Assembly: GCF_902170785.1 (NCBI RefSeq)
Contig: NZ_CABHYG010000011.1
Location: 186,001-250,000, forward strand
Source: Yersinia proxima
GTDB lineage: Bacteria > Pseudomonadota > Gammaproteobacteria > Enterobacterales > Enterobacteriaceae
Direction of reading: 5' to 3'
DNA: 64,000 bases
Position 1 is the first letter of the stretch. Each line of letters opens with the position of its first letter. The translations under genes were made by a program, and so were the position numbers. Below are positions 16,882-33,123 of this stretch, piece by piece. The notes beneath the pieces were generated by a model. That model worked only from the letters and a program-made list of their open reading frames with translations. It did no database searches and was not told the origin of the DNA.

Positions 16882-18282
16882 ATGACTAGAAAATCTCTGG
16901 ATGATTATCGCTCAGATTTATTAGACTCTCGCTTTGGCTCTAAAGCGATTCGTAATATTTCAGAAAATAAAGTATTCCCTAAAGAGGAGATGCGCGAGGA
17001 TATTGCTTTTCAAATCATCAGTGATGAACTATTTCTTGATGGTAATGCGCGACAGAATCTTGCCACATTCTGTCAGACGTGGGATGACGATAATGTCCAC
17101 AAACTGATGGATCTTTCGATAAATAAAAACTGGATTGATAAAGAGGAATATCCGCAATCAGCGGCAATAGATATGCGCTGTGTAAATATGATGGCTGATT
17201 TATGGAATGCCCCTACGCCGAAGGGGGAGCAAGGTGTGGGGACGAATACCATTGGTTCTTCAGAGGCGTGCATGCTGGGTGGCATGGCGATGAAGTGGCG
17301 CTGGCGCAAAAAAATGGAAGCGGCAGGCAAGTCAACGAATAAACCTAATTTTGTTTGTGGGCCGGTACAGGTGTGTTGGCATAAATTTGCCCGTTATTGG
17401 GATGTGGAAATTCGTGAAATTCCTATGATTCCAGGGCAATTATTTATGGATCCACAACGGATGATAGAAGCATGCGATGAAAATACTATTGGTGTTGTAC
17501 CGACTTTCGGTGTGACTTACACCGGCAACTATGAATTACCCAAACCCTTGCATGACGCGCTGGATAAATTGCAAAAAGATACCGGCCTCGATATTGATAT
17601 GCATATTGATGCGGCCAGTGGTGGCTTTTTAGCTCCCTTTGTTGCGCCGGATATTGAGTGGGACTTTCGTTTACCACGCGTTAAATCAATCAGCACTTCC
17701 GGGCATAAATTCGGGCTGGCACCTTTGGGATGTGGTTGGGTTATTTGGCGCGATGCCGCGGCGTTACCTGAAGAACTGATATTTAATGTCGATTATCTTG
17801 GTGGGCAGGTCGGCACATTTGCTATCAACTTCTCGCGTCCGGCGGGGCAAGTGATTTCCCAATATTATGAATTTATACGCTTAGGGCGTGAAGGTTATAC
17901 CAAAGTACAAAGCGCCTGCTATCAGGTAGCTGAATTCCTCGCCAAAGAAATAACTCCGCTTGGGCCTTATGAATTCTATTGCAGTGGTGGCCCGTATGAG
18001 GGTATTCCGGCTATTTGTTTTCGCATCAAAAAAGGGGAGAAACCTGGGTATACCCTCTATGACCTCTCCGAGCGTTTAAGGCTGCGTGGCTGGCAGGTTC
18101 CGGCATTTACCCTTAGTGGCAAGATGTCAGATGTGGTGGTGATGCGCATCATGTGCCGTCGTGGGTTCGAGATGGATTTCGCAGGGTTGCTCTTAGATGA
18201 TTTTAAATCCTCACTGAAATATCTAAGTGAACATCCATCCCTTGGAGGCGAGGCAAGTCAGAATAGTTTTAGTCATACATAA
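16882..18282 (+). CDS. gadB: Glutamate decarboxylase
   Basis: 466 residues, identical in length to E. coli GadA/GadB. The pyridoxal-phosphate lysine is in STSGHKFG at K276, the same number as E. coli. The enzyme converts glutamate and a proton to GABA and CO2, consuming cytoplasmic protons. The C-terminus QNSFSHT corresponds to the E. coli tail whose penultimate histidine closes the active site at neutral pH, and that histidine is kept. It is followed by gadC (73-base gap) and glsA, clearly one operon. Confidence 0.97.
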
Positions 18283-18355
18283 ACCGGGTGGCGGTCTTTA
18301 TTCTGATTATTAACCTTCAAGATGGTGCTATGCCCGTGAATAAGGTGGATAAATT

Positions 18356-19930
18356 ATGTCGAATAATAGCTCCGGGACAGGTAAACCTGCTGTTCCAGTC
18401 AAAAAGCTGAGTATCGCAACATTGGCTATCATGAATATCGTGGCTGTTGTCAGTCTCAGGGGATTACCCGCTGAAGCCGAATATGGCCTGAGTTCAATTT
18501 TCTATTATCTGTTTGCTGCAGTATTTTTCTTAATTCCTGTTTCACTGGTAGCGGCGGAATTAGCCACAGGCTGGCCTGAAAAAGGCGGGGTATTTCGCTG
18601 GGTTGGCGAAGCATTTGGCCCGCGTTTAGCTTTTCTTGCCATGTTTATGTTGTGGATTGAGGTGACCGTCTGGTTCCCCACTGCACTGACATTTGCTGCG
18701 GTATCACTGGCCTTTATCGGCCCAGAACAACGATGGGACGAGGCCCTGTCTGCCAATAAATTCTTTGTCTTGGGAATAGTGCTATTTATTTATTGGCTCG
18801 CCACCTTTATTGCCTTTAAAGGCGTTGATACATTCGCCAAAGTTTCAAAATGGGGCGGTATTATCGGTACGATTATTCCTGCGGTGATTTTGATTGTGCT
18901 GGGTTTCTCTTACTTAATTGGCGGTGGGACTCCACAAATAGAATTAGCCTGGGATCAGGTGGTTCCCGATTTTACCAACTTTGATAATGTGGTGCTGGCC
19001 GCCAGTATTTTCTTGTTCTATGCCGGTATGGAGATGAATGCCATCCATGTTAAAGATGTGGATAACCCGAATAGAAACTATCCCATAGCCATTATGTTGT
19101 CCGCCGTGGGGACGGTACTTATTTTCGTCTTAGGAACTCTGGCAATTGCCTTTATTATTCCACAGTCTGAAATTAGCCTGACGCAAAGCCTGTTGGTGGC
19201 TTACGATGATATGTTCAAGTGGGCTCATTTGGAATGGTTGGGGCCAGTGGTTGCTTTTGCTTTGGCTATTGGTGTGCTGGCAGGGGTGGTGACCTGGGTT
19301 GCTGGCCCATCTTCAGGTTTGTTGGTAGTGGCGAAAGCGGGTTATTTGCCACGCTGGTGGCAACATACCAATAAGAATGGCATGGCGACCCATATTCTGC
19401 TGTTACAGGCTCTGCTGGTTTCCTTGTTGGCAATACTGTTTGTGGTATTACCTTCGGTGCAGGCGGCGTATCAAATAATGAGTCAAATGACCGTTATCTT
19501 ATATCTCATCATGTATATGCTGATGTTCAGCTCTGCAATTTATCTGCGTTACAGTCAGCCGAATCGTCCACGCCCATATCATATTCCCGGCGGGGCAATC
19601 GGCATGTGGATTATTGGCGGAGCAGGGCTTATTGGCTCAATTCTGGCTTTCGTATTCAGCTTTATTCCACCCAGTCAAATTACGGTAGGTAGCCCAACAG
19701 AATATGTCGGTATTCTGATCGCCTCCACACTGTTCTTTGTCATTTTGCCATTCTTGATTTATATCGTTCGCAAGCCTCACTGGCGTGATGCAAATAGCGA
19801 TTTTGCCCCATTTACCTGGCAAGCAGAAAATGGTCATCCAGGTATTCCGAGTACTTCAGCGATGCATACCAATGACGTCACGGCTGCGGCAGCAATTAAC
19901 GCACCGGCTACCAATGCGCCGAAAAGTTAA
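18356..19930 (+). CDS. gadC: Glutamate:GABA antiporter
   Basis: 524 residues, about twelve membrane helices of the APC superfamily. The first helix contains ATLAIMNIVAVVSLRGLPAEAEYGL split over residues 21-45, typical for GadC. The C-terminal ~50 hydrophilic residues, rich in Ala/Asn/Thr, stand where E. coli GadC has the pH-sensitive plug, but the sequence is low-complexity and may differ in gating. It exchanges extracellular glutamate for GABA, completing the acid-resistance cycle, and in E. coli also imports glutamine. Confidence 0.95.
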   Translation: MSNNSSGTGKPAVPVKKLSIATLAIMNIVAVVSLRGLPAEAEYGLSSIFYYLFAAVFFLIPVSLVAAELATGWPEKGGVFRWVGEAFGPRLAFLAMFMLWIEVTVWFPTALTFAAVSLAFIGPEQRWDEALSANKFFVLGIVLFIYWLATFIAFKGVDTFAKVSKWGGIIGTIIPAVILIVLGFSYLIGGGTPQIELAWDQVVPDFTNFDNVVLAASIFLFYAGMEMNAIHVKDVDNPNRNYPIAIMLSAVGTVLIFVLGTLAIAFIIPQSEISLTQSLLVAYDDMFKWAHLEWLGPVVAFALAIGVLAGVVTWVAGPSSGLLVVAKAGYLPRWWQHTNKNGMATHILLLQALLVSLLAILFVVLPSVQAAYQIMSQMTVILYLIMYMLMFSSAIYLRYSQPNRPRPYHIPGGAIGMWIIGGAGLIGSILAFVFSFIPPSQITVGSPTEYVGILIASTLFFVILPFLIYIVRKPHWRDANSDFAPFTWQAENGHPGIPSTSAMHTNDVTAAAAINAPATNAPKS

Positions 19931-19999
19931 CATCTTTCTTCTCTATGCAGGGCGGCTTCGGCCTCCTGCCCAATAATATTAAGTGTTGGAGTCAGTATT

Positions 20000-20941
20000 A
20001 TGACTATTGACCTAGCTCGCTTGAATCACGTTATTAAGGATGCTTATTCGCAACACTCCACCCTCGCCGGAGGCGAGAATGCCAGCTACATTCCTTATCT
20101 GGCCAGCGTTCCCAGTCAGCTTGCTGGGTTAGCCATTGTCACTGTTAATGGCGATATTATTTCGCAAGGTGATGCCGATTTTCGTTTTGCCTTGGAATCT
20201 ATTTCGAAAGTGTGCTCTCTTGCCTTAGCGCTAGAAGATATTGGCCCACAGGCGGTACAGGACAAAATAGGCGCTGACCCTACCGGTTTACCTTTTAACT
20301 CGGTCATTGCGTTAGAGCTGCATAATGGTAAGCCTTTGTCACCACTGGTCAATGCGGGGGCGATGTCGACAGTGAGTGCGATTAAGGCCAGCAACCGGGA
20401 AGAGCGCTGGGCACGTATTTTGGATATGCAGCAGCAATTGGCTGGCGCGCCCATTGCACTTTCGGATGAAGTTAATCATTCAGAACAGACTACCAATTTT
20501 CACAATCGAGCCATTGCCTGGCTGCTTTATTCGGCCCAGGCCATGTATTGTGATCCGATGGAAGCCTGTGACGTTTATACCCGTCAGTGTTCAACATTGT
20601 TCAATACTATTGAACTGGCCACCATGGGGGCAACCTTTGCGGCGGCGGGAGTCAACCCTGTGACTAAAAAACAGGTGCTGACGGCCAGCAATACGCCATT
20701 TATTTTGGCGGAAATGACCATGGAAGGAATGTATGGTAGCTCTGGAGATTGGGCATATACCGTGGGCTTACCGGGTAAAAGTGGTGTCGGTGGCGGGATT
20801 CTGGCGGTAGTGCCGGGTGTTATGGGGATTGCGGCATTTTCGCCGCCCCTTGACCCGGTAGGCAATAGTGTCCGTGGCCAAAAAATGGTGGCATCAGTGG
20901 CGCAACAGTTGGGATATAACCTATATAAAGGTTCGCTTTAA
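20000..20941 (+). CDS. glsA: Glutaminase (acid-resistance type)
   Basis: 313 residues, near the 310 of E. coli GlsA1/YbaS. The beta-lactamase-like catalytic site is present: ESISKV (Ser-x-x-Lys at about residue 68) and the tyrosine and glycine motifs near SGDWAYTVGLPGKSGVGGG. It releases ammonia from glutamine; the ammonia takes up a proton and the glutamate feeds GadB. Placement as third gene after gadB-gadC indicates a combined glutamine/glutamate acid-resistance operon. GGAG precedes the ATG. Confidence 0.95.
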   Translation: MTIDLARLNHVIKDAYSQHSTLAGGENASYIPYLASVPSQLAGLAIVTVNGDIISQGDADFRFALESISKVCSLALALEDIGPQAVQDKIGADPTGLPFNSVIALELHNGKPLSPLVNAGAMSTVSAIKASNREERWARILDMQQQLAGAPIALSDEVNHSEQTTNFHNRAIAWLLYSAQAMYCDPMEACDVYTRQCSTLFNTIELATMGATFAAAGVNPVTKKQVLTASNTPFILAEMTMEGMYGSSGDWAYTVGLPGKSGVGGGILAVVPGVMGIAAFSPPLDPVGNSVRGQKMVASVAQQLGYNLYKGSL

Positions 20942-20952
20942 TCTTGGGTAGC

Positions 20953-20974
20953 GGCCCTGCGGTGCAGCAGGGCC
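20953..20974. terminator. Terminator between glsA and murP
   Basis: Perfect arms GGCCCTGC (20953-20960) and GCAGGGCC (20967-20974) with a 6-base loop lie between convergent genes, 12 bases after the glsA stop. Confidence 0.65.
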
Positions 20975-20990
20975 AAATCAATCATCGCAA

Positions 20991-22442
20991 CTAGCTTAAA
21001 TCAATATCCTTATGGCCGAAAAACCACGTCAGAATAAAGCCCGCAGCATATGAGATGAGGAGACCAACCACGTAAACCATCATTCCGGCGAAAATCCCCT
21101 GGCCTGATGTCATGAGTGGAATAGACACTAATCCCGATGGGCCAAACACCGTATTCAAACCAACCGGTAGCCCCAACCAGGCAACCAGACCGATAAAGAA
21201 GCCGCCGACAGCGCCACCTAAACACGCGGTAATAAAAGGCTTCAGGCGCGGTAATGTCACACCATAAATAAGTGGCTCACCAATCCCCAATAACCCAGGG
21301 AAAATGGCTCCTTTAATCTGTGTACGCAAGACAGAGCCTTTTGGCGAACGAACATAAAGTGCCAGTGCTGCCCCCACTTGCCCCCCACCTGCCATAGCCA
21401 GAATCGGGAATAATGAGTTGAAACCTTGCGCGTCCATTAAGGCGAAATAAACCGGAACAAACCCTTGATGGATACCGAACACCACGGCAATCAGGAATAA
21501 TCCAGCCAAAATAGCGGTGCCGAACGGGTTACCATTTAAATGCATAAACAGCCATGACATGCCCTTAAATAGCTCGCCCCCTACTGGCATGATGGCAACG
21601 AAAGTAATTGCACCTGTAATCAGCAGTGTGATGGCTGATGTCAGGATCATATCCAGATTATCAGGAATAAAACGACGCACTTGCCGCTCAACCCAGGCAC
21701 CTAACATACAGGCCAACAGAACGCCGATGATATTGCCGCGTGGGTCAATCGCCAGCCCAAAGAAACTTTCCATGCCGCCGTAGTAGCCGACAGTGCCTTC
21801 CGGTACATAGCGTAAAATAAACAGCGAAGCGATAATTGCGCCGTTGACCCCTGTCCCACCAAAGGCTTTCTGTGTATTAAAGCCAATCAGAATACTGAGG
21901 AAGGTGAACAAACCGATGCTGAACACTTTCATGTAAGCAATCAGTGCCGCCAGCCATGGGGATTGAATCACGCCATCCACTGCCAGTGTTTGCTGGAGTA
22001 ATGTTGCGATCCCCAGCAGTAATCCTGCGGCAATGAATCCGGGAATCAGTGGAGTAAATATGGTGGCGAATTTGGTCAGAAAATTATGAACAGCACTTTG
22101 TTGTTTCGCTTTCATTTGCTGTTTTTTCTGGCTGGCCAGCACATGCAAATCTGCATCCTGAACACTTTCATGTAACTGCTGCGGTTCAGAACTCAGCACC
22201 TTATTCATCATCTCACTGGCGGTTTGAGCTTTGCCCGGCCCGAGAATGATTTGTAACTGATCATCGCCGTTAACGACCCCCATCACGCCGGGTATTGTTT
22301 TTAAGTTGTCATGTTGTATCAGCTGACGATCTTTTAAGGTCAGGCGCAGCCTCGTCATGCAATTTCCACAAACGATGATATTCTTACTTCCGCCAATCAA
22401 GAGTAAGATCTGGCCTATCGTAGTGCTGGTTATTTTCGCCAT
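20991..22442 (-). CDS. murP: N-acetylmuramic acid PTS permease EIIBC
   Basis: 483 residues. The EIIB domain occupies about residues 1-85, with the phosphorylated cysteine in [10 protein letters not shown] (about C25). After a ~40-residue linker comes the EIIC membrane domain with about ten helices and the [13 protein letters not shown] motif (about residue 390). As in E. coli MurP there is no EIIA domain, so phosphate would come from EIIA-Glc. It imports MurNAc as MurNAc-6-phosphate, the MurQ substrate. It follows murQ with 2 bases between. Confidence 0.93.
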
Positions 22443-22444
22443 GG

Positions 22445-23353
22445 TTATACTTTAATCTCCTGGAGCGCTTTACGGATGAATCCTTTATTTTTTATAAGGA
22501 TATCGGCTGATTCCTCCGCAGACATACCACTCAGAATCATCATAATGGCTGTTTTGCAGTGACGGTTACATTTATCAAGTGCATCTTCTGCCTCTTCGGG
22601 AGAGCACTCAGTTGCTTGAACAACAATATTGACCTGACGTTGCACCAGTTTGGCATTTGTCGCTTCAACATCTACCATCAGATTGCTATACACTTTCCCA
22701 CTGCGGATCATCGCACCGGTTGTCAGCATATTCAGGATTAACTTCTGTGCTGTTCCGGCTTTCATCCGTGATGACCCAGTGACAACCTCTGGGCCGACCA
22801 GCGCCTCAATAGCGATATCTGCCGCTTTACTCATTTCGCTATTCTGATTACAGGAAATCGCCACCACGGTAGCCCCAACACTGCGCGCATAGGCCATGGC
22901 CCCTAGTACATAAGGTGTGCGGCCACTGGCTGCAATTCCGACGAGCACATCTCGTGCATTGAAATGTAGGTCACGCAGGTCTTGCTCACCCATTTCGCGG
23001 CTATCTTCTGCATTCTCAACCGCTTGCAAAATAGCTTTGCTGCCGCCAGCGATAAGGCCGATAACCATTTCTCGTGGCGTGCCATAGGTTGGTGGGCACT
23101 CACTAGCATCCAGAATCCCCAGTCGTCCAGATGTACCTGCCCCACAGTAAATTAATCTACCGCCGTGTGCGAACGCCTCGGCGATAAGCGAAACGGCTTG
23201 GGCAATTTCGGGCAGCTTCTCTTCCACTGCATAGGGCACTTTTTTATCCTCATTATTGATAACCTTGAGTATCTCCAGTGTTGAAAGAGTATCAATTTGA
23301 GAACTGGCAGGGTTTCGGCTTTCCGTAACCATTGAACTTAGATTAATCTTCAT
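22445..23353 (-). CDS. murQ: N-acetylmuramic acid 6-phosphate etherase
   Basis: 302 residues, a SIS-domain protein with the MurQ signatures [25 protein letters not shown] (residues split over about 85-109) and [16 protein letters not shown] (about 190-205). It splits MurNAc-6-P into GlcNAc-6-P and D-lactate in the cytoplasm. First gene of the murQ-murP unit. It is divergent from murR with a CRP-like dyad between. The start has GGAAG seven bases upstream. Confidence 0.96.
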
Positions 23354-23383
23354 GGGGACTTCCTTTTATTTAAATTATCGGCG

Positions 23384-23426
23384 ATGTTAAGTAATTAATT
23401 ATTTATTAAACGTGATGTTCGTCACG
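23384..23426 (-). promoter_or_regulatory. Putative CRP-dependent murQP promoter
   Basis: A CRP-like dyad CGTGA-N6-TCACG spans 23411-23426. On the minus strand TAACAT (23389-23384) is a fair -10, placing the start near 23377 and the dyad centre near -41.5, the class II arrangement. E. coli murQP needs CRP-cAMP. The promoter position is my inference. Confidence 0.55.
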
Positions 23427-23580
23427 GTAAAACCTATTCTAACCACTGGGGCTATGAGGAATAAGTACAGATAAAAATGAATAAATTAATAAATTATCTT
23501 CATTATATTTATACAGTTACGCCTTGGTCATAAAAGGTATTGAGCTGGAATAATCCATTATCTTTAACGGGAAACCTTTG

Positions 23581-24441
23581 ATGTCGATTCTGAATGAAAT
23601 AACCTGGTTACTACCTGAACTGGCAGAAAACCAACAAAAAATAGCAAAATACATTCTTGATAATCCGGAGTCTATTCTCAGTATATCTTCTTCTCAGTTT
23701 GCAGAAGATGCGGGAGTCAGCCAGTCGGCCATTGTAAAATTTAGTCAAAAGATTGGTATGAAAGGTTTTCCGGCCTTAAAAGTCGCGATCAGTGAAGAAT
23801 TAAGCAGAAATAACTTATTTAAATCCTATCCACATAAAGCACTGCATAATTCTATTTCACCCGAAGACTCATTGATGGTGATGGCACAAAAACTTGCACA
23901 TGAGAAAACGGCGTCAATTATGGAAACAACAAGAAAAATTAATTTTTCTGTTTTCCAGCAAGTGATCTCACTCATTAATACTGCTCAGCGAGTACAAATA
24001 GTGGGTATCTGGGGGTCAGGACTTACAGCAAAGGACCTGAGCTATAAATTGCAAAAAATAGGTATAATGACTCTGGTTGAAGCAGACCTCCATGTACAGA
24101 TTGCCGCAGCGCTGACCCTTACACCCAAAGATGTGCAAATTGTTCTTTCCTTCACGGGTAGAAGAAAAGATATGAGAATTGCAGCAACAGTCGCCAAAGC
24201 ACAAGGTGCAACGGTCATTGCGATTACCGGCAGTAAAGTCTCGCCGTTGGCTAAAATTGCTGATTATGTCCTTGAAAGTATTTCGGATGAAAATGAGTGG
24301 CGAAGTTCTTCAATATCATCCAGAACGGCGCAAAATACTCTCACTGACCTGATATTTCTGGCATTGATGCAGCAGCGAAAAGAAATGGCTAAGCCTTTGA
24401 TTCTGAATGCGAGTATGACAATAAATAATCTGGATGACTGA
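23581..24441 (+). CDS. murR: MurR-like RpiR-family regulator
   Basis: 286 residues from the ATG at 23581 (a TTG one codon earlier is possible). The N-terminal RpiR helix-turn-helix is at about residues 1-77 (FAEDAGVSQSAIVKFSQKIGMKGFPALK), and the C-terminal SIS sugar-phosphate-binding domain at about 120-260 (VGIWGSGLTAKDLSYKLQ, then IAITGSKVSPLA). In E. coli MurR represses murQP and responds to MurNAc-6-P. It is divergent from murQ here, as in E. coli, and lies between the uptake unit and the nagZ unit. Confidence 0.88.
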   Translation: MSILNEITWLLPELAENQQKIAKYILDNPESILSISSSQFAEDAGVSQSAIVKFSQKIGMKGFPALKVAISEELSRNNLFKSYPHKALHNSISPEDSLMVMAQKLAHEKTASIMETTRKINFSVFQQVISLINTAQRVQIVGIWGSGLTAKDLSYKLQKIGIMTLVEADLHVQIAAALTLTPKDVQIVLSFTGRRKDMRIAATVAKAQGATVIAITGSKVSPLAKIADYVLESISDENEWRSSSISSRTAQNTLTDLIFLALMQQRKEMAKPLILNASMTINNLDD

Positions 24442-24469
24442 TGTGTTAGCATATCGGTTCATAAGTTTT

Positions 24470-24510
24470 AAGGCAATGAAGGTTATATATTTTAATTACC
24501 TCATTGCCTT
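24470..24510 (+). terminator. Hairpin after murR
   Basis: AAGGCAATGA (24470-24479) pairs with TCATTGCCTT (24501-24510), and the inner bases AGGT/ACCT extend the stem. It lies 29 bases after the murR stop; only a weak T stretch follows. Confidence 0.55.
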
Positions 24511-24723
24511 GTGTTACTTTCGGTATGTCTATCTTATCAGGCACTATCTGTAACTCTGATGGCTATTAAATGATTACATTTTGATTTGTTTTGTAATAAC
24601 TATTCCTGCTGGTAATAAAGTTATTCCTTGTCTTGTCGCCTAATATGGCGGGTTTTCTGAAATGAACACACAAAAAAGAAATGTTATTATTCCTTATTAG
24701 TACGAAAAGGCGAATCAATCAAC

Positions 24724-24765
24724 TGTGATTATTATCACTTTATTATACGAGTTAAAAAGTAAAAT
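24724..24765 (+). promoter_or_regulatory. Putative CRP-dependent promoter of the nagZ unit
   Basis: TGTGA-N6-TCACT (24724-24739) is close to the CRP consensus. TAAAAT at 24760-24765 would be the -10, giving a start near 24772-24773 and a site centred near -41. This is the same geometry as the murQP site. Confidence 0.55.
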
Positions 24766-24784
24766 CGCCCGACAAACATAGCTA

Positions 24785-26665
24785 ATGGAAAAGTTAATGA
24801 AAAAATTAATACCCGCGATTCTCTTATTTAGTACCTGTACTTACGCAGATGTTATTCCAGATGCACAACTTAAAGAAATGTGGTTGTCGCCGAAAATTTC
24901 GGCTGAAAAAATAACCTCCCAAATGAGTTTTGAAGAAAAACTCGGGCAAATATTAATGGTTGATATTCGATCCTGGAGTCATACTGATAACGGCGATAAA
25001 GCAGCATTCATTGAAATAAATGACTCTGTCAGTAAGATGATTCGTGATTATCATTTAGGTTCTATTATTCTTTTCCGTGAAAACCTGATTGATACACCAC
25101 AAACAGTCGAGTTAATTAATAATCTTCAAAATGCGCGCAGTAATCTCCCTCTATTTATTAGCACAGATCAGGAAGGCGGGTATGTCACCCGCCTACGAGT
25201 GGGGACTGAAATGCCAGGGAATATGGCATTAGGGGCTACCGGTTCATCCAAGTATGCTCAGCAGGCTGGAAGTATCCATGGTTATGAGTTATCCAGCCTG
25301 GGGTTTAACTTTAACTTTGGCCCAGTGGTTGATGTTAACAATAACCAGAATAACCCCGTTATTGGCGTACGCTCTTATTCAAATGATCCGGTACTGGTCG
25401 GGGAATTAGCCCGCAGTTATATCAGTGGCATCCACAAATATAATGTACTCACTTCACTAAAACACTTCCCTGGTCATGGCAACGTTACCTCGGATACCCA
25501 TTTTTCCCTGCCGACGGTTAATATTGATAAAGCTGCATGGCAGCAAGTCGAACTGAAACCCTTTGTCGAAGTTATGCCAGTGACTGATGCCATTATGACT
25601 GCTCATGTGGTTGTGCCAGCCCTGGATGATTCAATGCTCACAAATATTAAGGGCGAAAAAGTGGGTACTCCAGCCACATTATCAAAGCCCATACTGACCG
25701 ACATCCTCCGCAATCAGCTAAAGTTTGATGGCTTGATCCTGACTGATGCTATGGATATGGGGGCGATTACCAGTAACTTTGATCGTAACTGGTCTATCAA
25801 ACAGGCCATTATGGCTGGTAATGATATTGTCTTAATGCCAATGGAAATTAAGAATCGCGACAGTATTGAACAACTCAATGCACTTTATGTTTATTTAAAA
25901 ACTGAGGCCATGAAAGATCCGGTGCTTAAAAAACGTATTGAGGATGCAGCACAGCGAGTTATTTACACCAAACTGAATAAGCGTATTTCTCCTGAGCCAC
26001 ATGATGTCACTATTGCGGAGAAAGTTGTCGCATCGAAAAACCATAAGAATATTGAGAACTTTATTTCTGAACAGGCTATCACGTTAATTAAAAATGATAA
26101 TGTGTTACCCTATAAAATTAAGCCACAAAACAAGATAATGGTATTTTCTGACGAGAAACCACGCAACGAACTCATTACCAAACATCTTGATGATATTGCT
26201 AATGAATTTCAAGTTGATTTTTCCATTAAAAATCAAGTGATAAAACTAGATAAGAGTGATGCAAATTCTGAGGATATCGCCAAACAGATTAAAGGCCAAG
26301 ACCTTATTATTCTTGCTACTTATAATCTTAAACTTGATCCCATTAATGCACAGCGGATCATCGATGAGGCAAATAATGCCAATATTCCACTGGTCGTCAT
26401 ATCTAGTCGCAACCCTTACGATATTGCTTATCTATCCGGCGTAAAGGCGAATATTGCTATTTATGGTATTACAGGATTCGATGTGACTAATAATGTACGA
26501 AACAGTTTAGAAACTAATATCCGTAGTGGGTTAAGAACATTATTTCAGGGGCCAAAAGGGAAATTAGATGTATTGGCCAAACCACATGGGAAATTGCCTG
26601 TTGATATTAAAACCCCTGATAATAGCCAAATACTCTTTCCACGGGGTTATGGACTAACAACATAA
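24785..26665 (+). CDS. nagZ: Exported beta-N-acetylglucosaminidase, GH3 (NagZ type)
   Basis: 626 residues with an N-terminal signal peptide (hydrophobic core LIPAILLFSTCTYA, cleavage likely before D22); the in-frame ATG at 24797 is an alternative start. The GH3 domain has KHFPGHG (226-232), the Asp-His catalytic dyad D237/H239, and the nucleophile D321 in LILTDAMDMGAI. About 200 further residues form a C-terminal alpha/beta domain. This two-domain exported form resembles Bacillus subtilis NagZ (YbbD) rather than the one-domain cytoplasmic E. coli NagZ. It would remove GlcNAc from peptidoglycan fragments in the periplasm. First gene of a unit with the porin and namZ. Confidence 0.88.
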   Translation: MEKLMKKLIPAILLFSTCTYADVIPDAQLKEMWLSPKISAEKITSQMSFEEKLGQILMVDIRSWSHTDNGDKAAFIEINDSVSKMIRDYHLGSIILFRENLIDTPQTVELINNLQNARSNLPLFISTDQEGGYVTRLRVGTEMPGNMALGATGSSKYAQQAGSIHGYELSSLGFNFNFGPVVDVNNNQNNPVIGVRSYSNDPVLVGELARSYISGIHKYNVLTSLKHFPGHGNVTSDTHFSLPTVNIDKAAWQQVELKPFVEVMPVTDAIMTAHVVVPALDDSMLTNIKGEKVGTPATLSKPILTDILRNQLKFDGLILTDAMDMGAITSNFDRNWSIKQAIMAGNDIVLMPMEIKNRDSIEQLNALYVYLKTEAMKDPVLKKRIEDAAQRVIYTKLNKRISPEPHDVTIAEKVVASKNHKNIENFISEQAITLIKNDNVLPYKIKPQNKIMVFSDEKPRNELITKHLDDIANEFQVDFSIKNQVIKLDKSDANSEDIAKQIKGQDLIILATYNLKLDPINAQRIIDEANNANIPLVVISSRNPYDIAYLSGVKANIAIYGITGFDVTNNVRNSLETNIRSGLRTLFQGPKGKLDVLAKPHGKLPVDIKTPDNSQILFPRGYGLTT

Positions 26666-26684
26666 TAAGCTATCGGAAGGTAAA

Positions 26685-27770
26685 ATGAATATATTAAATG
26701 GAATTGTGGTTTTTAGTACCTTAACACTATGCATGCCGGTATTAGCAGATGAATTTGAAACTGATTATGATCAGGAGATTTTTAAATTAAATGAAAGAAT
26801 CCAAAAAATAGAAAAAGAAAAAAAAGAAGCACAGGATAAACTACGACAAAAAGCATGGAATTTCGAAACTTATATAGGTGCAGAACAAGAGATAGACAGT
26901 GATGAAAGTTGGAAGTTTATTAAAGGTAGTATGGCAACCTCACCTTATGTTGGTGCCTATATCTATCAAAATGACTCACTGTGGCTATATGATGTTCAGT
27001 TTTTAAAAACATATCTGGATAATAATCCAGAGTATGATCGTACACGTTGGCAGGTTGGTGTCACCAGAACTTTTCCTTTCACCTACGATGGTAAGAGTGG
27101 TAATACGAAATTGCGCTTAGGTTATCGTAATGATAACTGGCATTATCCATCAATAAGCAACCCGGCATTGGCTGACCCTGAGTACAAAGGGGATGTTCGC
27201 AAAGGTGAAGAGCGGCATGAAATCTGGATCCGCCCACAGGCATATTATCAATATTCTGAGAATCTAAGTTTTAACGCCAGCTTATCATTTCGCCTGATTG
27301 ATCGTAAATTGGACTACGCTCGTGCTAAAGGGAATTATGGCGTATACAAACGAGATTGGAGCCAAATAAATGAGCATTTTGCTGGCGCCAATATCACCTT
27401 TAATCAGAAAAACTCACTCTGGTTAAACTATTTGTACATTGATGAACAATTGGTCAATACGCTTTATAACAAAGAGCATTTCTTATGGGGAATTTACCGC
27501 CATAAATTTGATAATGGCCTTTTGTTTATGCCTTATACGCGTCTGGCCTTGGTTAAAGGGACACAAAGTTTCCGTGACTCGAATAATCATGAAACTGTAC
27601 ATAAAGAAAAGAATCGTAGCCGTTATGGTTTACAGGTGCTCTACCCACTGACAAAACAAACATCAATATTTGCCGATACCTATTACCGTCCAGAGCAAAC
27701 CTGGACTGACAGCAACAAAACCAGCAATAATTTTTGGTTTTGGGCTGTGGAGTTGAGGCACAATTTCTGA
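26685..27770 (+). CDS. OmpG-like outer-membrane porin
   Basis: 361 residues. A signal peptide (cleavage near LADEFE, about residue 22) is followed by a charged, probably coiled-coil stretch (about residues 28-58: repeated KIEKEKKEAQDKLRQK pattern). The rest, about 300 residues, is rich in alternating aromatic beta-strands, ending in F (WAVELRHNF), as outer-membrane barrels do. The size fits the monomeric 14-strand OmpG family. GGAAGG precedes the ATG. Placement between exported NagZ and NamZ suggests it admits muropeptide sugars. A KdgM-like barrel is less likely from the length. Confidence 0.72.
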   Translation: MNILNGIVVFSTLTLCMPVLADEFETDYDQEIFKLNERIQKIEKEKKEAQDKLRQKAWNFETYIGAEQEIDSDESWKFIKGSMATSPYVGAYIYQNDSLWLYDVQFLKTYLDNNPEYDRTRWQVGVTRTFPFTYDGKSGNTKLRLGYRNDNWHYPSISNPALADPEYKGDVRKGEERHEIWIRPQAYYQYSENLSFNASLSFRLIDRKLDYARAKGNYGVYKRDWSQINEHFAGANITFNQKNSLWLNYLYIDEQLVNTLYNKEHFLWGIYRHKFDNGLLFMPYTRLALVKGTQSFRDSNNHETVHKEKNRSRYGLQVLYPLTKQTSIFADTYYRPEQTWTDSNKTSNNFWFWAVELRHNF

Positions 27771-27822
27771 TACTTAATAAGAAATATCAAAAAATCAATT
27801 TATTAATAGCGAGATATTAGGG

Positions 27823-29154
27823 ATGAGGAATTTCCTGCGAATATTATTATGTCTGTATGGACTATTTATTGTCAGCTTTGGCCATGCCAGCGTTACCCAA
27901 GAAATTATTTTAGGCGTTGATCAGGAAAGTGTTTATGGTCCACTACTTAAAAATAAACGTATTGGTTTAATGGTCAACCAAAGTTCGATTAACAAGGAAG
28001 GGCGTCATACCATTGATAAATTGTTAGCCGAGCAAAATAAATACCATTTTACAGTGACAAAATTATTCTCCGTTGAGCATGGTATACGTGGAAACGAAGA
28101 TGCTGGATTAGGGGATGATAATCATATCGATAAACAGAGTGGCCTCCCCATTATTTCTCTGTATGGAATAGATAAAGATGGACGCGCACGCGCCCACCCA
28201 ACCGAAACGCAGTTATCTGATGTTGATGTTGTTATTTATGATTTACAAGATGTCGGTGTTCGTTATTTTACCTATACAATTTCCATGCATCATATGCTGG
28301 AAAGCCTGCAAAAATACCATAAGCAATTTATGGTATTTGACCGGCCTAACCCGCTCGGAAATCATGTTTATGGGCCAATTCTTGAAGAGGAAAATATTTC
28401 CGGAATTGGTATGCATCCTGTCCCTATGGTGCATGGTCTGACATCGGGAGAGTTTGCCCGGATGATAGTTAATGAGGGTTGGTTAACCCATTTCAATGAT
28501 TCTAATTGGGGCTCATTTAGTATCAAAGATTATCAGTTTCCCCCTGAAGACTTGACTGTTATTGCTATGGGAAATTACACGCATGATTCACCTTATTCAT
28601 TGCCAGTAAGACCTTCACCCAATTTACGCAGTGATTTGTCTATTCAGCTTTATCCTTCTTTGGGCTTATTTGAAGCAACCAGTGTCAATATGGGTCGAGG
28701 TTCAGACTATCCTTTTGAGCAATTGGGTTTCCCATCCAAGAAGTTTTACACCAATACTTGCTATCATGTTGATATTAACCAACAGAAAACCGGATGGCCA
28801 CAAGCGGGAAAAGAAGTCTGTGGCGAAAGATTTACTGCCACCAATATAGCCGAGATTAAGCCGACGATACGTTACTTTGTTGAATGGTGGTTTAAATTTA
28901 AAGATGCGGGTTATTCCATGGTGATCCCTGCTCAAATGGAAGCAAATTATCTGGAGCATCAGGAGAAGTATTTTCTAATACGACCTACATGGTTGGCTAA
29001 ATTAACAGGTACGCGCAATCTGGTTAAATTAATGAAAGAAGCAGACAATAAGAAATTAACTATCGATGAAACTGTGAATTATCTAGAATCTAGCTGGCAG
29101 CCTGATCTTGATAATTATCTGAAATTACGCGAGAAATATAAAATTTATCCTTAA
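27823..29154 (+). CDS. namZ: Exported exo-beta-N-acetylmuramidase NamZ-like (DUF1343)
   Basis: 443 residues with a signal peptide (LLCLYGLFIVSFGHA, cleavage before S23). The DUF1343 hallmarks are present: RIGLMVNQSSI, FSVEHGIRGNEDAG, VVIYDLQDVGVRYFTY, FDRPNPLGN, PMVHGLTSGEFA and RPSPNL. The B. subtilis member NamZ (YbbC, family GH171) cleaves MurNAc from the non-reducing end of chains and of MurNAc-GlcNAc. The putative catalytic Glu lies in the SVEHG motif. It lies 52 bases after the porin gene and completes the sugar-salvage set. Confidence 0.82.
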   Translation: MRNFLRILLCLYGLFIVSFGHASVTQEIILGVDQESVYGPLLKNKRIGLMVNQSSINKEGRHTIDKLLAEQNKYHFTVTKLFSVEHGIRGNEDAGLGDDNHIDKQSGLPIISLYGIDKDGRARAHPTETQLSDVDVVIYDLQDVGVRYFTYTISMHHMLESLQKYHKQFMVFDRPNPLGNHVYGPILEEENISGIGMHPVPMVHGLTSGEFARMIVNEGWLTHFNDSNWGSFSIKDYQFPPEDLTVIAMGNYTHDSPYSLPVRPSPNLRSDLSIQLYPSLGLFEATSVNMGRGSDYPFEQLGFPSKKFYTNTCYHVDINQQKTGWPQAGKEVCGERFTATNIAEIKPTIRYFVEWWFKFKDAGYSMVIPAQMEANYLEHQEKYFLIRPTWLAKLTGTRNLVKLMKEADNKKLTIDETVNYLESSWQPDLDNYLKLREKYKIYP

Positions 29155-29177
29155 ATCCTATTATTCTTCTTTGACGT

Positions 29178-29211
29178 TTGGGGTGACAGTGAGAGCTGCG
29201 CCCCTTTTTTA
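29178..29211 (+). terminator. Terminator of the nagZ-namZ unit
   Basis: GGGGTG...CGCCCC stem with an inner CAG/CTG pairing is followed by six T residues, 24 bases after the namZ stop. Confidence 0.75.
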
Positions 29212-29257
29212 TGATGATTATCTTGGGTAGTGCAATGATTTATTCGAACCAAATAAA

Positions 29258-29289
29258 AAGGAGTCAGATGATTGCTCATCTAACTCCTT
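29258..29289 (-). terminator. Original tRNA-Ile2 terminator, now displaced
   Basis: Arms AAGGAGT and ACTCCTT with an inner AGATGA/TCATCT pairing. Read on the minus strand it ends in a T-rich tail. Before prophage insertion this lay directly 3' of the tRNA; the prophage has moved it ~29 kb away. Confidence 0.7.
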
Positions 29290-29291
29290 AC

Positions 29292-29342
29292 AAATTTGGT
29301 GGCCCCTACTGGACTTGAACCAGTGACCAAGCGATTATGAGT
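29292..29342. repeat. attL-side copy of the 51-bp attachment repeat
   Basis: Identical over 51 bp to 58651-58701. It contains the 3' 46 bases of the tRNA-Ile2 gene. Bases outside differ on both sides. It marks one prophage end, next to int. Confidence 0.95.
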
Positions 29343-29396
29343 ATCTAACTATATCTATATAAATCATATAATTATGATATATGTCAGTGACATAGA

Positions 29397-29422
29397 TTGC
29401 CATTAATTGCCAAGAAATGCCA
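29397..29422. promoter_or_regulatory. Three phased TTGCCA boxes near attL
   Basis: TTGCCA at 29397 and 29407 and ATGCCA at 29417 repeat at exactly 10-bp steps. They are the reverse complement of the TGGCAA boxes before the apl gene. A perfect palindrome TATGTCA-G-TGACATA lies just left (29380-29394). They are likely excisionase (Apl/Cox) sites. Confidence 0.65.
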
Positions 29423-29424
29423 GA

Positions 29425-30450
29425 TTATACAATCTCTATCGCCACTTTATCGCCACTCATTGCCAGCGGATTAAGTTTCACTGCTTCTTCTAAATGGTCT
29501 GGTGCAAAGTGCGCGTAACGCATAGTCATTTTAATATCGGTATGTCCAAGTACACGTTGTAATACCAGTATATTACCGCCATTCATCATAAAATGTGATG
29601 CAAAGGTATGGCGTAATACGTGGGTCAATTGACCCGCTGGTAATTCTATTTCTGTGCGATTTAGGGCTGAGCGAAATGCGCCATAGCATGAAGTAAAAAG
29701 ACGTCCTTTTTTCTTCTCAGGTAAGGAATCATATATTTCAGGGCTAATAGGAATGGTTCTATTCTTTCTACCTTTGGTCTTGGTATAAGTGATTTTATAC
29801 TTATTAACTTGGCTACTTCTTAGTTCTTCTGCCTCAGACCAGCGGGCGCCAGTAGAAAGACAGATTTTTACAATATTCACCAAGTCAGCGTTGTTCTCTC
29901 GCCCGCACTCAAGCAACAAGTGGGCTATTTGCTCTTTAGTGAGGAAAGCCATCTCACTCTCTTCAGTACGGAAAGGGCGTATATTTTTAAGCGGGTTTTC
30001 ACCAGCCCATTCACCTAGACGATTTAGCTCGTTAAAAACTGCTCGGAAATATGCTAACTCTAGATTTATAGTGCGCGGTGCAACTTTAGTTACTCTGCTA
30101 GAACGGGCAAAGTCGCCTTTTAGGCGCTTCTCTCTGTACCGTGAAAACATCTGAGCGTCAAAATCTTTTGCTAGCGGTTGGCCCATGCACTCGTAAGCAT
30201 GATGCATTGCTTGCTGCCGCCTTTCACCGTCTTTTAGTGTTATACCATGTGCTGTAAACCATGCATCAACCAACGTTTTTAGAGTCCGTTCATCTTCTTT
30301 TTCATCGTGCCAAGGTTTCTGAACAGTGTGTTGCTCAAAGGAAATAGCTTCGCCTTTTGTCGCGAACTTTCTACGAATGCGCTTACCTTTGGCTCCATTA
30401 AGGTAAATTTCACAGAGCCACCATCCATCAGCCTGTTTTCTGATTGCCAT
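29425..30450 (-). CDS. int: Phage integrase (tyrosine recombinase)
   Basis: 341 residues. The catalytic set is visible: Arg in STGARWSEAEEL (about 205), LTHVLRHTFASHF (His-x-x-Arg, about 278-290), LGHTDIKMTMRY with the second His and the nucleophilic Tyr in RYAHF (about 315). An N-terminal arm-binding and SAM-like core-binding region precedes. It integrates the phage at the tRNA site. Its start codon overlaps the stop of cI (TGATG), so both are one leftward transcript. Confidence 0.95.
   Translation of the reverse strand: MAIRKQADGWWLCEIYLNGAKGKRIRRKFATKGEAISFEQHTVQKPWHDEKEDERTLKTLVDAWFTAHGITLKDGERRQQAMHHAYECMGQPLAKDFDAQMFSRYREKRLKGDFARSSRVTKVAPRTINLELAYFRAVFNELNRLGEWAGENPLKNIRPFRTEESEMAFLTKEQIAHLLLECGRENNADLVNIVKICLSTGARWSEAEELRSSQVNKYKITYTKTKGRKNRTIPISPEIYDSLPEKKKGRLFTSCYGAFRSALNRTEIELPAGQLTHVLRHTFASHFMMNGGNILVLQRVLGHTDIKMTMRYAHFAPDHLEEAVKLNPLAMSGDKVAIEIV
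29437..29455. promoter_or_regulatory. Repeated TATCGCCA sites, left end
   Basis: TATCGCCACTTTATCGCCA contains the octamer twice, inside the last int codons. A near copy lies at the other prophage end (58569-58586). They are candidate integrase arm-binding sites. Confidence 0.45.
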
Positions 30451-31025
30451 CAGTTAACCTCGGTGTAAATCCCAACAACGCGGCCAAGTGTTTTAATCTC
30501 ATCAATGCCACATTCAAATGGCACCCTACCACCCGTAACATGGAGCCTCCTGGCAGGAAGTAAAGCTAGCTCGCGGATACTGATAGAACCCTCAATATCT
30601 ACCAGCCACAATCCATCTGAAATAGATGCAACTAGCTCTATAATATGTGTCTTACCATCGGACTTAACACATTGCGGGTGAGTTAGCACTTTGCCAAATA
30701 GTTTTGGGTCGATACTCAAAATTCCATCTTCGACTAACTTACTTTCACTTAAAGTGAATGTTTTTAGCTCTAACACTTCATATTTAGGGGTTTCACCGCT
30801 AAATCTCGGCCCATTCCCAGTGAGTAACCAGTGAATGCTTGCGCCGGTATCTAAGGAGCAGTGAACAATAAAATCATAAGAGATAGTTCCACGCGTATAC
30901 CGATTCTGTAGGGAACTGGCTGCGATATTGAATTGTCTCGCAAGCTGTATCTTCTGACTAAATCCGTAAGCCTCGCAGACTCTGTTTAAAACATCCTCGT
31001 TACTGATTCCATCATCAATATTCAT
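30450..31025 (-). CDS. cI: 186-type CI repressor
   Basis: 191 residues. The N-terminal ~70 residues are a CI-type helix-turn-helix (SQKIQLARQFNIAASSLQNRYTRGTISYD), followed by the WLLTGNGP segment typical of this family. The C-terminal ~100 residues form the oligomerisation domain (SDGLWLVDIEGSISIREL). No Ala-Gly cleavage site with Ser-Lys dyad is evident, so, like 186 CI, it is unlikely to be self-cleaved by RecA. It should maintain lysogeny from the operators at 31030-31069 and the TTCAC sites. Confidence 0.88.
   Translation of the reverse strand: MNIDDGISNEDVLNRVCEAYGFSQKIQLARQFNIAASSLQNRYTRGTISYDFIVHCSLDTGASIHWLLTGNGPRFSGETPKYEVLELKTFTLSESKLVEDGILSIDPKLFGKVLTHPQCVKSDGKTHIIELVASISDGLWLVDIEGSISIRELALLPARRLHVTGGRVPFECGIDEIKTLGRVVGIYTEVN
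30744..30758. promoter_or_regulatory. TTCAC-N5-GTGAA site inside cI
   Basis: TTCAC-TTAAA-GTGAA, same layout as at 31423-31437 and 58188-58202. It lies ~300 bp left of the early promoter, where 186 has its flanking CI site FL. Confidence 0.55.
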
Positions 31026-31029
31026 AATT

Positions 31030-31074
31030 AATACGTCACTCCGTATTGACCAATGCGTCGTTACGCATTAGGAT
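31030..31074 (+). promoter_or_regulatory. Rightward early promoter with two repressor palindromes
   Basis: Palindrome AATACG-N6-CGTATT (31030-31047) and palindrome AATGCGT-N4-ACGCATT (31052-31069) have centres 22 bp apart. TTGACC (31046-31051), a 17-base spacer and TAGGAT (31069-31074) make a fair promoter whose spacer is exactly the second palindrome. CI bound there would block it. Confidence 0.65.
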
Positions 31075-31098
31075 TGCGGTCAAGCCTAAAGTCATTGA

Positions 31099-31134
31099 TG
31101 GCAAAAGTTGGCAAACCGTGGCAATCAATGGCAA
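31099..31134. promoter_or_regulatory. Four phased TGGCAA boxes (Apl/Cox sites)
   Basis: TGGCAA starts at 31099, 31109, 31119 and 31129: perfect 10-bp spacing, one face of the helix. The same hexamer inverted occurs three times at attL. In 186, Apl binds phased direct repeats at the early promoters and at att. Confidence 0.7.
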
Positions 31135-31161
31135 ATATTTTCTAACCGGGAATAATGCATT

Positions 31162-31422
31162 ATGACAGCACTCATTACAATCAAGATCCCACGTGAAACC
31201 GTTTTTCCAGAAGAGTTTGCAGCCCTTGAGGGGGTTTCTGTTCGCACCGTTTATCGTCGTACAACTGGTAACGACGCCTGTATCCCCATTGAGCCACGCA
31301 CTATAAAGAAAGGAAACAAGCGGGCTAGCGGCCCTATCAAGATTCTTTATGCTCGTTATAAAGAACTAGAAGCAAGAAAAGCGCTTGGTCATTCCCGTTT
31401 TCAAATCGTCATTGGTGCGTAA
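31162..31422 (+). CDS. Apl/Cox-type excisionase and early repressor
   Basis: 86 residues with a winged/AlpA-like helix-turn-helix (FAALEGVSVRTVYRRTTGN, about residues 14-32) and a basic C-terminal part, as in the Cox/Apl family of P2-like phages. Such proteins turn down the repressor promoter and assist excision. It is the first gene of the early rightward operon, divergent from cI. It would bind the phased TGGCAA boxes just upstream and at attL; that pairing is an inference. Confidence 0.8.
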   Translation: MTALITIKIPRETVFPEEFAALEGVSVRTVYRRTTGNDACIPIEPRTIKKGNKRASGPIKILYARYKELEARKALGHSRFQIVIGA

Positions 31423-31437
31423 TTCACATTAAGTGAA
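31423..31437. promoter_or_regulatory. TTCAC-N5-GTGAA site between apl and cII
   Basis: TTCAC-ATTAA-GTGAA inside a longer dyad (31421-31439), directly after the apl stop. Its position, ~380 bp right of the early operators, matches the 186 FR site. Confidence 0.55.
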
Positions 31438-31452
31438 TTTTGAGGTGAAAAC

Positions 31453-31962
31453 ATGTTTGATTTTTCTGTTTCTAAACATCCGCATTTTGACAACGCCTGC
31501 CGCCAGTTTCCAACGCGTCACAATCTGACGCAGTTGGCGAAACTGTTGGATATGAATGCACAAACGTTGCGGAATAAGCTCAACCCGGAGCAACCGCACC
31601 ACCTTACTGTTACTGAATTGCTTGCTATCACCGACGCAACAGAAGACGCCAGCCTTATCGATGCTATGTTGGCGCAAATCAATTGCATGCCATCGGTGCC
31701 AGTCAATGAAGCCTGTGCCGGTAATATCCCAACTTATGCGTTACATGCTACTGCTGCTGTTGGCTTAATTGCCGCTGCTGCTGTTCAAGGCGATCATAAG
31801 ACCGCTTCCCGTAAATCATCGCTACTGGATACCGTCAATACTGCGATTCGCCACCTGTCACTGATTGGCCTGACAGTGCAATGTCGCATTCAGTCAACCC
31901 CTGCGCTTGCTTCAACCGTTGATGTTATTAGCGGCTTGAGTGCTGTCGCCGGTTTAAGTTGA
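31453..31962 (+). CDS. cII: CII-like phage regulatory protein
   Basis: 169 residues of the P2/186 CII-type family (N-terminal MFDFSVSKHPHFDNACRQF, then LTQLAKLLDMNAQTLRNKLNPEQPHHLTVTELLAITD as the DNA-binding helix pair). In 186 CII activates the establishment promoter of cI. The C-terminal half is alanine-rich and less conserved. A GAGG site precedes the ATG. It is second in the early operon, after apl. Confidence 0.8.
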   Translation: MFDFSVSKHPHFDNACRQFPTRHNLTQLAKLLDMNAQTLRNKLNPEQPHHLTVTELLAITDATEDASLIDAMLAQINCMPSVPVNEACAGNIPTYALHATAAVGLIAAAAVQGDHKTASRKSSLLDTVNTAIRHLSLIGLTVQCRIQSTPALASTVDVISGLSAVAGLS

Positions 31963-31971
31963 GGTGTCTTT

Positions 31972-32157
31972 ATGATTATTTCTATTGCTCCACTGTTAAA
32001 ACAGCAAAGCCCGGTAAACCTGCGCCATTTCGGTCACGGTGTGCTGGAGTTGAAGAACGGCCAGCGCTGGAAGCCGGGAAGTAATCAAAAGGTGCTTTTA
32101 CAAGAATTGTCCTCTGCAAAGAAGACGCCAATATTACGTCGTCTGTTCGGACGTTGA
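31972..32157 (+). CDS. Fil-like phage protein (DUF2724)
   Basis: 61 residues, recognisable by GHGVLELKNGQRWKPGSN in its middle. The 186 Fil protein, named for filamentation of the host when expressed, belongs to this group. Mechanism is not known from sequence. GAGG precedes the ATG. It is early-operon gene three. Confidence 0.65.
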   Translation: MIISIAPLLKQQSPVNLRHFGHGVLELKNGQRWKPGSNQKVLLQELSSAKKTPILRRLFGR

Positions 32158-32168
32158 TTGGGGGTTAT

Positions 32169-32480
32169 ATGCTGCAATTAACGGAAGCTGAAAAATTAAG
32201 AATGACGGGTATTGCTCGTATTGCTGAATTAAAAGAAACGCATTTCCGTAATAGAAAGAATGTTGCTCAGGAGGCTTTTGACAAATCACCGGCACATTTG
32301 CGTAAAACAATTTGTTTTCATGCAGGGTTAAAAAAACGCCATGTGAATATGCAATTTTCAGAGTTAACTCCAGCAGAAAGAGAATCTGTTATTGAAGCGT
32401 TAAATTACTTAATTGAGTTTACTCGTTCGCTGCCGTCGTTTGTCAGTAATGATGACTGCGCGCTGAATATTATTAATTAA
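32169..32480 (+). CDS. Small early phage protein (DUF5347-like)
   Basis: 103 residues from the ATG at 32169 with a GGGGG tract before it; a TTG five codons earlier is less likely. Charged and helical; the central LRKTICFHAGLKKRHVNMQF segment resembles DUF5347 proteins of P2-like phages. It occupies the place of P2 gene B and its neighbours, but I see no helicase-loader motif. Function unknown. Confidence 0.5.
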   Translation: MLQLTEAEKLRMTGIARIAELKETHFRNRKNVAQEAFDKSPAHLRKTICFHAGLKKRHVNMQFSELTPAERESVIEALNYLIEFTRSLPSFVSNDDCALNIIN

Positions 32481-32545
32481 TTATCATCGCAATATATGGC
32501 GTTCTACTCGCCGGGTTTCGTATTGCCTAAAAACAGGAGTTATCT

Positions 32546-32818
32546 ATGCAGAATACAGAACAGAATATATGGGTTTTCGTAGACCCCGCAAAGCCGGGCA
32601 GTGAGAGCACAATCACAATGACGTCAGTTGAATCAATGGAGCTAATGCTCAATGAAGCGCGCATGAATGAAAGAAAGAATCAGGCCGCGCTGGTTTCATT
32701 TCGTTTGGATGAGATTGCTAATCAAATCCTAAACCGAGAATTGAACGGCGTAGAGGCGGCGGAGCTGCTTAATCAAATAGCCGAGGGAATTCTTAACCAA
32801 GCGCAGGCGCAACATTGA
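32546..32818 (+). CDS. DUF2732-like early phage protein
   Basis: 90 residues. The part from MLNEARMNERKNQAAL to the end is helical and matches the DUF2732 pattern found in many P2-like prophages (FRLDEIANQIL then AAELLNQIAEGIL). AGGAG precedes the ATG. The stop overlaps the next start (TGATG). Function unknown. Confidence 0.6.
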   Translation: MQNTEQNIWVFVDPAKPGSESTITMTSVESMELMLNEARMNERKNQAALVSFRLDEIANQILNRELNGVEAAELLNQIAEGILNQAQAQH

Positions 32819-33123
32819 TGATTGATGAAATCATTATTGATGCTCGTTACGCAATTACGTTGCTTGAGCCAACCCGAACTCTAAATCGCATTCCAAACCT
32901 CGTGCTTAACGAGATTAAATTCACCAAAGAAAATGAAAGGGTGTTAGCCGTAATTGCTCATTATCCGACAAGAGTTAGTTTGGTAAGTGATTTAATTCAT
33001 CATCGTATTTATCGCTCTGGCGTTAATTCTATTTCGGCGTTGGTTGAGGAAACTAAACGCCTTGCTGAATTATGTGAGAAAGGATTTAAAGATTTTCACT
33101 CTCCTAACTTATTACCTAAATAA
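32818..33123 (+). CDS. DUF5405-like protein, first paralogue
   Basis: 101 residues from the ATG overlapping the preceding stop. Shares the YPT-x-x-x-LV-x-x-LI pattern and a C-terminal S-x-x-x-L-x-x-E-x-x-R-x-x-x-LC-E pattern with the next gene, so the two are paralogues. Such proteins occur in the same place in many P2-like phages. Function unknown. Confidence 0.55.
   Translation: MIDEIIIDARYAITLLEPTRTLNRIPNLVLNEIKFTKENERVLAVIAHYPTRVSLVSDLIHHRIYRSGVNSISALVEETKRLAELCEKGFKDFHSPNLLPK

Follow-up and report, generated by a model that had tools for sequence, protein, structure and literature searches.

In a 64,000-nucleotide stretch of Yersinia proxima DNA (contig NZ_CABHYG010000011.1, positions 186,001 to 250,000; hereafter the window), the genes murP, murQ and murR lie next to nagZ2, a putative porin gene and namZ, and the latter three genes (the trio) quite probably form, together with the mur genes, a regulon of two transcription units for scavenging the glycan chains of peptidoglycan. 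Peptides would be removed first, before any exo-trimming, and the porin would pass peptide-free oligosaccharides of N-acetylglucosamine (GlcNAc) and N-acetylmuramic acid (MurNAc) across the outer membrane. Periplasmic NagZ2 and NamZ would alternately remove GlcNAc and MurNAc from the non-reducing end. MurNAc would be imported and phosphorylated by MurP and the resulting MurNAc-6-phosphate converted to GlcNAc-6-phosphate by MurQ, with GlcNAc entering by a separate route of its own. MurR, sensing MurNAc-6-phosphate, and CRP would switch both units.

Gene organization of the locus

All six genes were recovered at the positions, and in the order, given in the original prediction, which was made from the sequence alone and described murQ-murP as divergent from murR, followed by NagZ, a porin and NamZ. 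On the minus strand, murP (20991-22442) encodes a MurNAc phosphotransferase system (PTS) EIIBC importer (NCBIfam NF007152, 841 bits, cut-off 516; Pfam PTS_EIIC and PTS_EIIB), in which the Pfam scan found no EIIA domain. It is separated by 2 bp from murQ (22445-23353, minus strand), which encodes the MurNAc-6-phosphate etherase (TIGR00274, 441 bits, cut-off 302). The plus-strand gene at 23581-24441 encodes an RpiR-family regulator with HTH_6 and SIS domains (Pfam), which is called MurR here from its position and conservation.

The trio follows on the plus strand: nagZ2 (24797-26665, alternative ATG at 24785) for an exported two-domain GH3 beta-N-acetylglucosaminidase (Pfam Glyco_hydro_3, PF00933), the porin gene (26685-27770) for a putative outer-membrane beta-barrel channel, and namZ (27823-29154) for an exported exo-beta-N-acetylmuramidase of the DUF1343 type (NamZ_N 215 bits, cut-off 26.9; NamZ_C 51 bits, cut-off 25). 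The gaps of 19 bp between nagZ2 and the porin gene and of 52 bp between the porin gene and namZ are consistent with a single unit, in agreement with what had been predicted for these genes. Between murR and the trio lies a gap of 355 bp with conserved elements of its own, and the trio is probably transcribed from a separate promoter; a simple promoter and terminator scan scored only ~1 standard deviation above shuffles. At 0.38-0.40, the GC content of murR and the trio is below that of murPQ and of the window (0.48 for both), a difference that may reflect a separate origin or lateral transfer.

Conservation of the trio and its link to MurP

Close relatives of the porin were found in 24 distinct genomes, 15 of Yersinia and nine of six other genera. 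The original prediction had proposed co-occurrence across genomes as a check, and nagZ2 before the porin gene, namZ after it and an encoded MurP ortholog were indeed found together in 24/24.

Yersinia was sampled with 25 genomes, one per species. NamZ was present in 15 of them, each with a contiguous run of the nagZ2 end, the porin gene and namZ. The complete six-gene order was kept in 13/15, the window included; in Y. artesiana (G004) the contig ends between murR and nagZ2, and in Y. rohdei (G020) the trio adjoins pst-phoU (L007:1-6929), with the mur genes on another contig. The relocated trio of Y. rohdei retains the half-sites and the CRP-like site described below. Full-length MurP orthologs (at least 85% identity) were encoded in 16 of the 25 genomes, namely the 15 with namZ and G008, that is in 15/15 genomes with namZ and 1/10 without (Fisher 5e-6, uncorrected for kinship or adjacency). 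G008 has a whole murP and a murQ matched only as two fragments, and the 18 kb seen there lack the trio; in G006 only a murP remnant was observed, near an integrase-like gene; these two genomes (L126, L127) show decay of the locus.

Wider samples comprised 394 genomes of the order, 392 of the family and 274 of the class; they overlap, and the co-occurrence counts are uncorrected for phylogeny. In the order sample NamZ was found in 36 genomes (35 over the cut-off) and a porin relative in seven, six of which have the trio. The seventh, G050 (~30% porin identity), does not belong to the 36 genomes with NamZ, and it showed no mur gene within 20 kb of its porin relative. The family sample gave 12 porin matches: ten of at least 69% identity, all with the trio, and two partial-length matches of 27% without it. 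Only the window's own porin was matched in the class sample.

In all nine non-Yersinia genomes with a porin of at least 52% identity the trio is contiguous. It is adjacent to murPQ-murR in five (G222, G720, G473, G193 and G245), in two of which (G193 and G245) it is inverted and converges on murR, and it lies apart from the mur genes in four (G731, G673, G506 and G526), where MurP is encoded elsewhere. Since the layouts vary between same order, inverted and relocated, the link exceeds one inherited adjacency. Chance adjacency was considered as well and was ruled out by the 24/24 conservation together with the rearranged layouts. Where genomes of the order encode NamZ but lack this trio, murQ stands beside namZ in 22/29 returned loci (1.5-kb flanks). 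In one genome (G318, L064:2209-7635) namZ is flanked by two nagZ2 copies; on this short contig the window porin had no match, and an OmpG-type porin was not sought there by tblastn.

Predicted exported enzymes, and OmpG-family porins in the same slot

NagZ2 and NamZ are expected to be exported and to act on GlcNAc- and MurNAc-terminated chains, respectively. All three proteins of the trio start with an apparent cleavable signal peptide, as judged by eye only. Residues 8-621 of NagZ2 align to residues 11-635 of the B. subtilis YbbD/NagZ structure 3bmx (E 3e-113), the C-terminal domain included. The protein keeps the presumed catalytic elements, namely KHFPGHG (222-228), the Asp-x-His dyad (D233/H235) and the Asp nucleophile in ILTDAMDM (314-321). 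It scored below the cut-off of the NagZ equivalog NF003740 (beta-N-acetylhexosaminidase; 180 versus 207 bits). In NamZ, the motifs EHG, QDVG, DRPNP and HG.T.GE are invariant in 9/9 aligned proteins, that of the window included.

Five further loci (G241, G301, G673, G731 and G506) encode a true OmpG-family porin next to nagZ2 and mur genes, so that porins of two sequence families are found in this setting. In G241, murR is divergent from an apparent operon murQ-murP-nagZ2-porin-namZ, the porin of which has 335 residues and matches Pfam OmpG (PF09381) with 64 bits (cut-off 26.5). G301 has murQ-murP-nagZ2-ompG with a converging murR. Besides the trio, G673, G731 and G506 each have another locus with murR, murQP and nagZ2-ompG, which holds a second murQP in G673 and G731 and the only murQP found in G506. 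Each of G673 and G731 (L171, L173; L149, L150, L170, L172) thus has murQP twice: nagZ2 and an OmpG-type porin accompany one copy and are missing beside the other, and the trio with the window-type porin is unlinked in both genomes.

These loci bear on the possibility that the main task of the trio is the periplasmic recovery of products of the cell's own turnover, with the porin as a general channel for sugars that was carried with it. The B. subtilis enzymes do degrade muropeptides from the cell's own turnover (PMC5061867). For products made inside, however, a porin would add nothing, yet it is kept between both enzymes in all 24 genomes, and a second, different porin occupies a place beside nagZ2 and mur genes in the five further loci. 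Moreover, the one other GH3 gene in the genome, a 360-codon open frame, fits a cytoplasmic NagZ that could serve own turnover. Recovery of turnover products as the main role is therefore considered unlikely, and scavenging of external glycan chains is preferred.

The porin is a remote relative of OmpG

As a single sequence, the window porin had no Pfam or NCBIfam match at E 0.001 and no PDB match at E 1, and it did not match PF09381 (OmpG) at a maximum E of 10 with the HMMER filters on. A profile of seven close relatives (alignment A3) matched a six-member OmpG profile with E 1.5e-9 and probability 96. In the controls, the reversed profile gave E 0.13, six column shuffles gave E 0.052-0.58 and NamZ gave E 0.83. 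Against the PDB, the A3 profile found no barrel; a PDB match to OmpG obtained with alignment A1 vanished in A3, a smaller set from which the members of L063 and L069 are absent, and reliance was therefore placed on the controlled profile-profile test. We take the window porin as a remote OmpG relative and not as a member of the OmpG family. Of the earlier description as OmpG-like, the remote homology thus stands, and the protein falls below the Pfam OmpG model.

The porin carries an extra N-terminal charged stretch ahead of the barrel, helical by eye, and ends in a C-terminal Phe. Outer-membrane barrels often end in Phe. It is doubtful that the barrel protein is an enzyme anchor, an adhesin or an exporter of trimmed sugars and not an importer. 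Such roles would suit the N-terminal stretch and the lack of a porin-family match by sequence alone, but the remote OmpG match came with clean controls, and a true OmpG (PF09381, 64 bits) sits in the same slot of locus L063. A 30% relative of the porin was also observed at L069:9318-11292, between autotransporter-like and unknown lipoprotein-like genes and without mur genes; it may represent a sister family that serves a different substrate.

Promoter elements and probable shared control

The murQ-murR and murR-nagZ2 gaps were aligned over 15 rows, 12 from Yersinia (window included) and three from other genera. Both gaps contain a CRP-like core and repeated elements of the GGAATA/TATTCC type. 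The CRP-like site between murQ and murR, CGTGATGTTCGTCACG (23411-23426), has two mismatches and that before nagZ2, TGTGATTATTATCACT (24724-24739), has one; at each of them GTGA-N6-TCAC is present in 15/15 rows. GGAATA half-sites are located between murQ and murR at 23458-23463 and before murR at 23547-23552, and three TATTCC half-sites are located before nagZ2 (24601-24606, 24622-24627 and 24688-24693). In G193 and G245, neither murQ nor nagZ2 was found to be preceded by a CRP-like site.

In 18 promoter regions, 41 half-sites were seen compared with 4.6 expected from shuffles, a count that is partly circular because some of those regions had served to define the motif. The regions were picked by the authors, some after half-sites had been noticed, and L149-L151, L170, L172, L062 and L155 were left out. 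L155 has one half-site before murQ, and neither L155 nor L063 has any before the operon-internal nagZ2.

Less circular are the genomes with an unlinked trio. Three of them (G731, G673 and G506) have the palindrome GGAATA-N3-TATTCC and a CRP-like site before nagZ2, and in G673 and G731 the palindrome also stands before murQ; the fourth, G526, has half-sites only. A search of 12 whole genomes gave 19 palindrome places in nine genomes (backward control, eight places). Eight of the 19 lie either in the murQ-murR gap or ahead of murQ or nagZ2; G673 has only two copies, one before murQ and one before nagZ2.

In Vibrio cholerae, the murQP promoter is a target of CRP, which binds and activates it (PMC10328515), and E. 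coli MurR acts as a repressor of the murQ operon when MurNAc-6-phosphate is absent (PMC5061867). On the strength of the conserved elements, MurR may bind the GGAATA/TATTCC motif and CRP the CRP-like sites. The murR-murQ gap of E. coli has ATTCC half-sites and no GGAATA/TATTCC, and nothing firm was read from this comparison.

Co-regulation of the two units, on which the original prediction had made its proposal depend, is thus favored by the shared promoter elements and lacks, in the window's genome, the exact palindrome. The predicted periplasmic NagZ/NamZ pair with a dedicated porin feeding MurP gains from the conservation of trio and MurP in 24/24 genomes, and also from the apparent single operon in another family and the shared elements. 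Action of the trio on a different amino-sugar polymer, such as chitin oligomers, with a chance location near the mur genes, is very improbable: GH3 enzymes of the NagZ2 type also cut chito-oligosaccharides, but NamZ belongs to its muramidase family, murQ recurs beside namZ in 22/29 loci without this trio, MurP is encoded in all 24 trio genomes, and the palindrome is common to both units in G673 and G731.

Several observations weigh against the proposed scavenging regulon. No AmiE-type amidase was found among the six locus proteins (Pfam), the open reading frames of 17000-33000 otherwise being inspected by eye; because the Bacillus AmiE has no counterpart in the locus, the gene set is not quite complete, and the earlier impression of a complete-looking locus holds for the six genes and not for an amidase. 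An AmiD-like Amidase_2 protein with a lipoprotein signal (LAGC, by eye) is encoded elsewhere in the genome and could strip the peptides. The window MurR is below the cut-off of the E. coli-type MurR equivalog NF012026 (244 versus 408), and the OmpG kinship of the porin is only remote. In G014, the match to the porin gene (L084:4960-6041) breaks into two pieces with a change of frame, which is not the case in the close relative G015, so that the G014 copy looks frameshifted and may be broken. NamZ is absent from the G301 locus. As to control, 3/18 promoter regions are singly not enriched for half-sites, palindrome-bearing murQP in G673 and G731 have no adjacent murR, and 11/19 palindrome places lie elsewhere, compared with eight in the backward control. 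The whole-genome search found no palindrome in the window's genome, G720 or G526, and the Yersinia half-sites have other spacings than the palindrome.

Neighboring genes and prophage

Directly left of murP, at 16882-20941, are gadB, gadC and a glutaminase gene, which adjoin murP in 11/15 trio-bearing Yersinia and likewise in Y. rohdei, where the mur genes stand apart from the trio.

To the right, an apparent prophage extends between namZ and a tRNA gene (29292-58732). This tRNA (58656-58732), assigned as tRNA-Met CAT by ARAGORN, is one that we take to be tRNA-Ile2, and 51 identical bases of its 3' end are found at 29292, near the integrase gene (29425-30450), and at 58651. In other Yersinia the tRNA closely follows namZ, at ~150 bp in Y. 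vastinensis and Y. frederiksenii. A relative of the window integrase is near the locus in only 1/17 other genomes (14 Yersinia, G222, G720 and G473); Y. alsatica has a related integrase near namZ and the tRNA. Because the integrase is rarely near the locus and the tRNA closely follows namZ in those two species, the trio is not phage-borne, and its origin as prophage cargo was ruled out.

Comparison with known systems and significance

The ybbC gene of B. subtilis is presumably namZ. On that assumption, the clustering of murQ, murR, murP, nagZ and namZ in B. subtilis, as the original prediction had it, agrees with the described cluster murQ-murR-murP-amiE-nagZ-ybbC, in which the amidase AmiE takes part in peptide removal (PMC5061867). 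The Y. proxima locus resembles this cluster in having the same pathway genes, including a two-domain exported NagZ. It differs in being Gram-negative, in the presence of a porin, in the absence of amiE from the locus, and in that murR is divergent from murQP and the trio is in its own unit. The locus therefore looks like a Gram-negative counterpart of the Bacillus cell-wall recycling cluster. E. coli K-12 shares the divergent murR and murQP, but there yfeW follows murP, and exported NagZ, NamZ and the porin are absent within the 12 kb seen. Compared with OmpG (PF09381), the window porin shows remote profile similarity, misses the Pfam model and carries the extra N-terminal stretch, whereas its G241 counterpart is a family member. 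Tannerella forsythia depends on external MurNAc and imports disaccharides by AmpG (PMC7670621). This is likewise a Gram-negative use of external peptidoglycan sugars, whereas in the locus described here monomers would enter by MurP and a porin is linked.

In the open-licence literature, neither a porin-equipped version of the cluster nor a dedicated outer-membrane channel for peptidoglycan sugar chains was found, in line with the earlier impression that such a version is little described. The passage of peptidoglycan sugar chains across the Gram-negative outer membrane seems little described altogether, and the porin fixed between two exo-hydrolases is a testable candidate channel. Its placement points to a class of natural substrates for porins of the OmpG type, and the MurR regulon could be mapped with the help of the palindrome.

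Evenly balanced is the further proposal that the 361-residue barrel founds a new channel family for peptidoglycan glycan fragments ('muroporin'), that OmpG porins were independently recruited, and that both joined the MurR regulon together with NagZ and, in most cases, NamZ. If it is true, Gram-negative bacteria would eat the cell-wall chains of other bacteria through a purpose-made channel.

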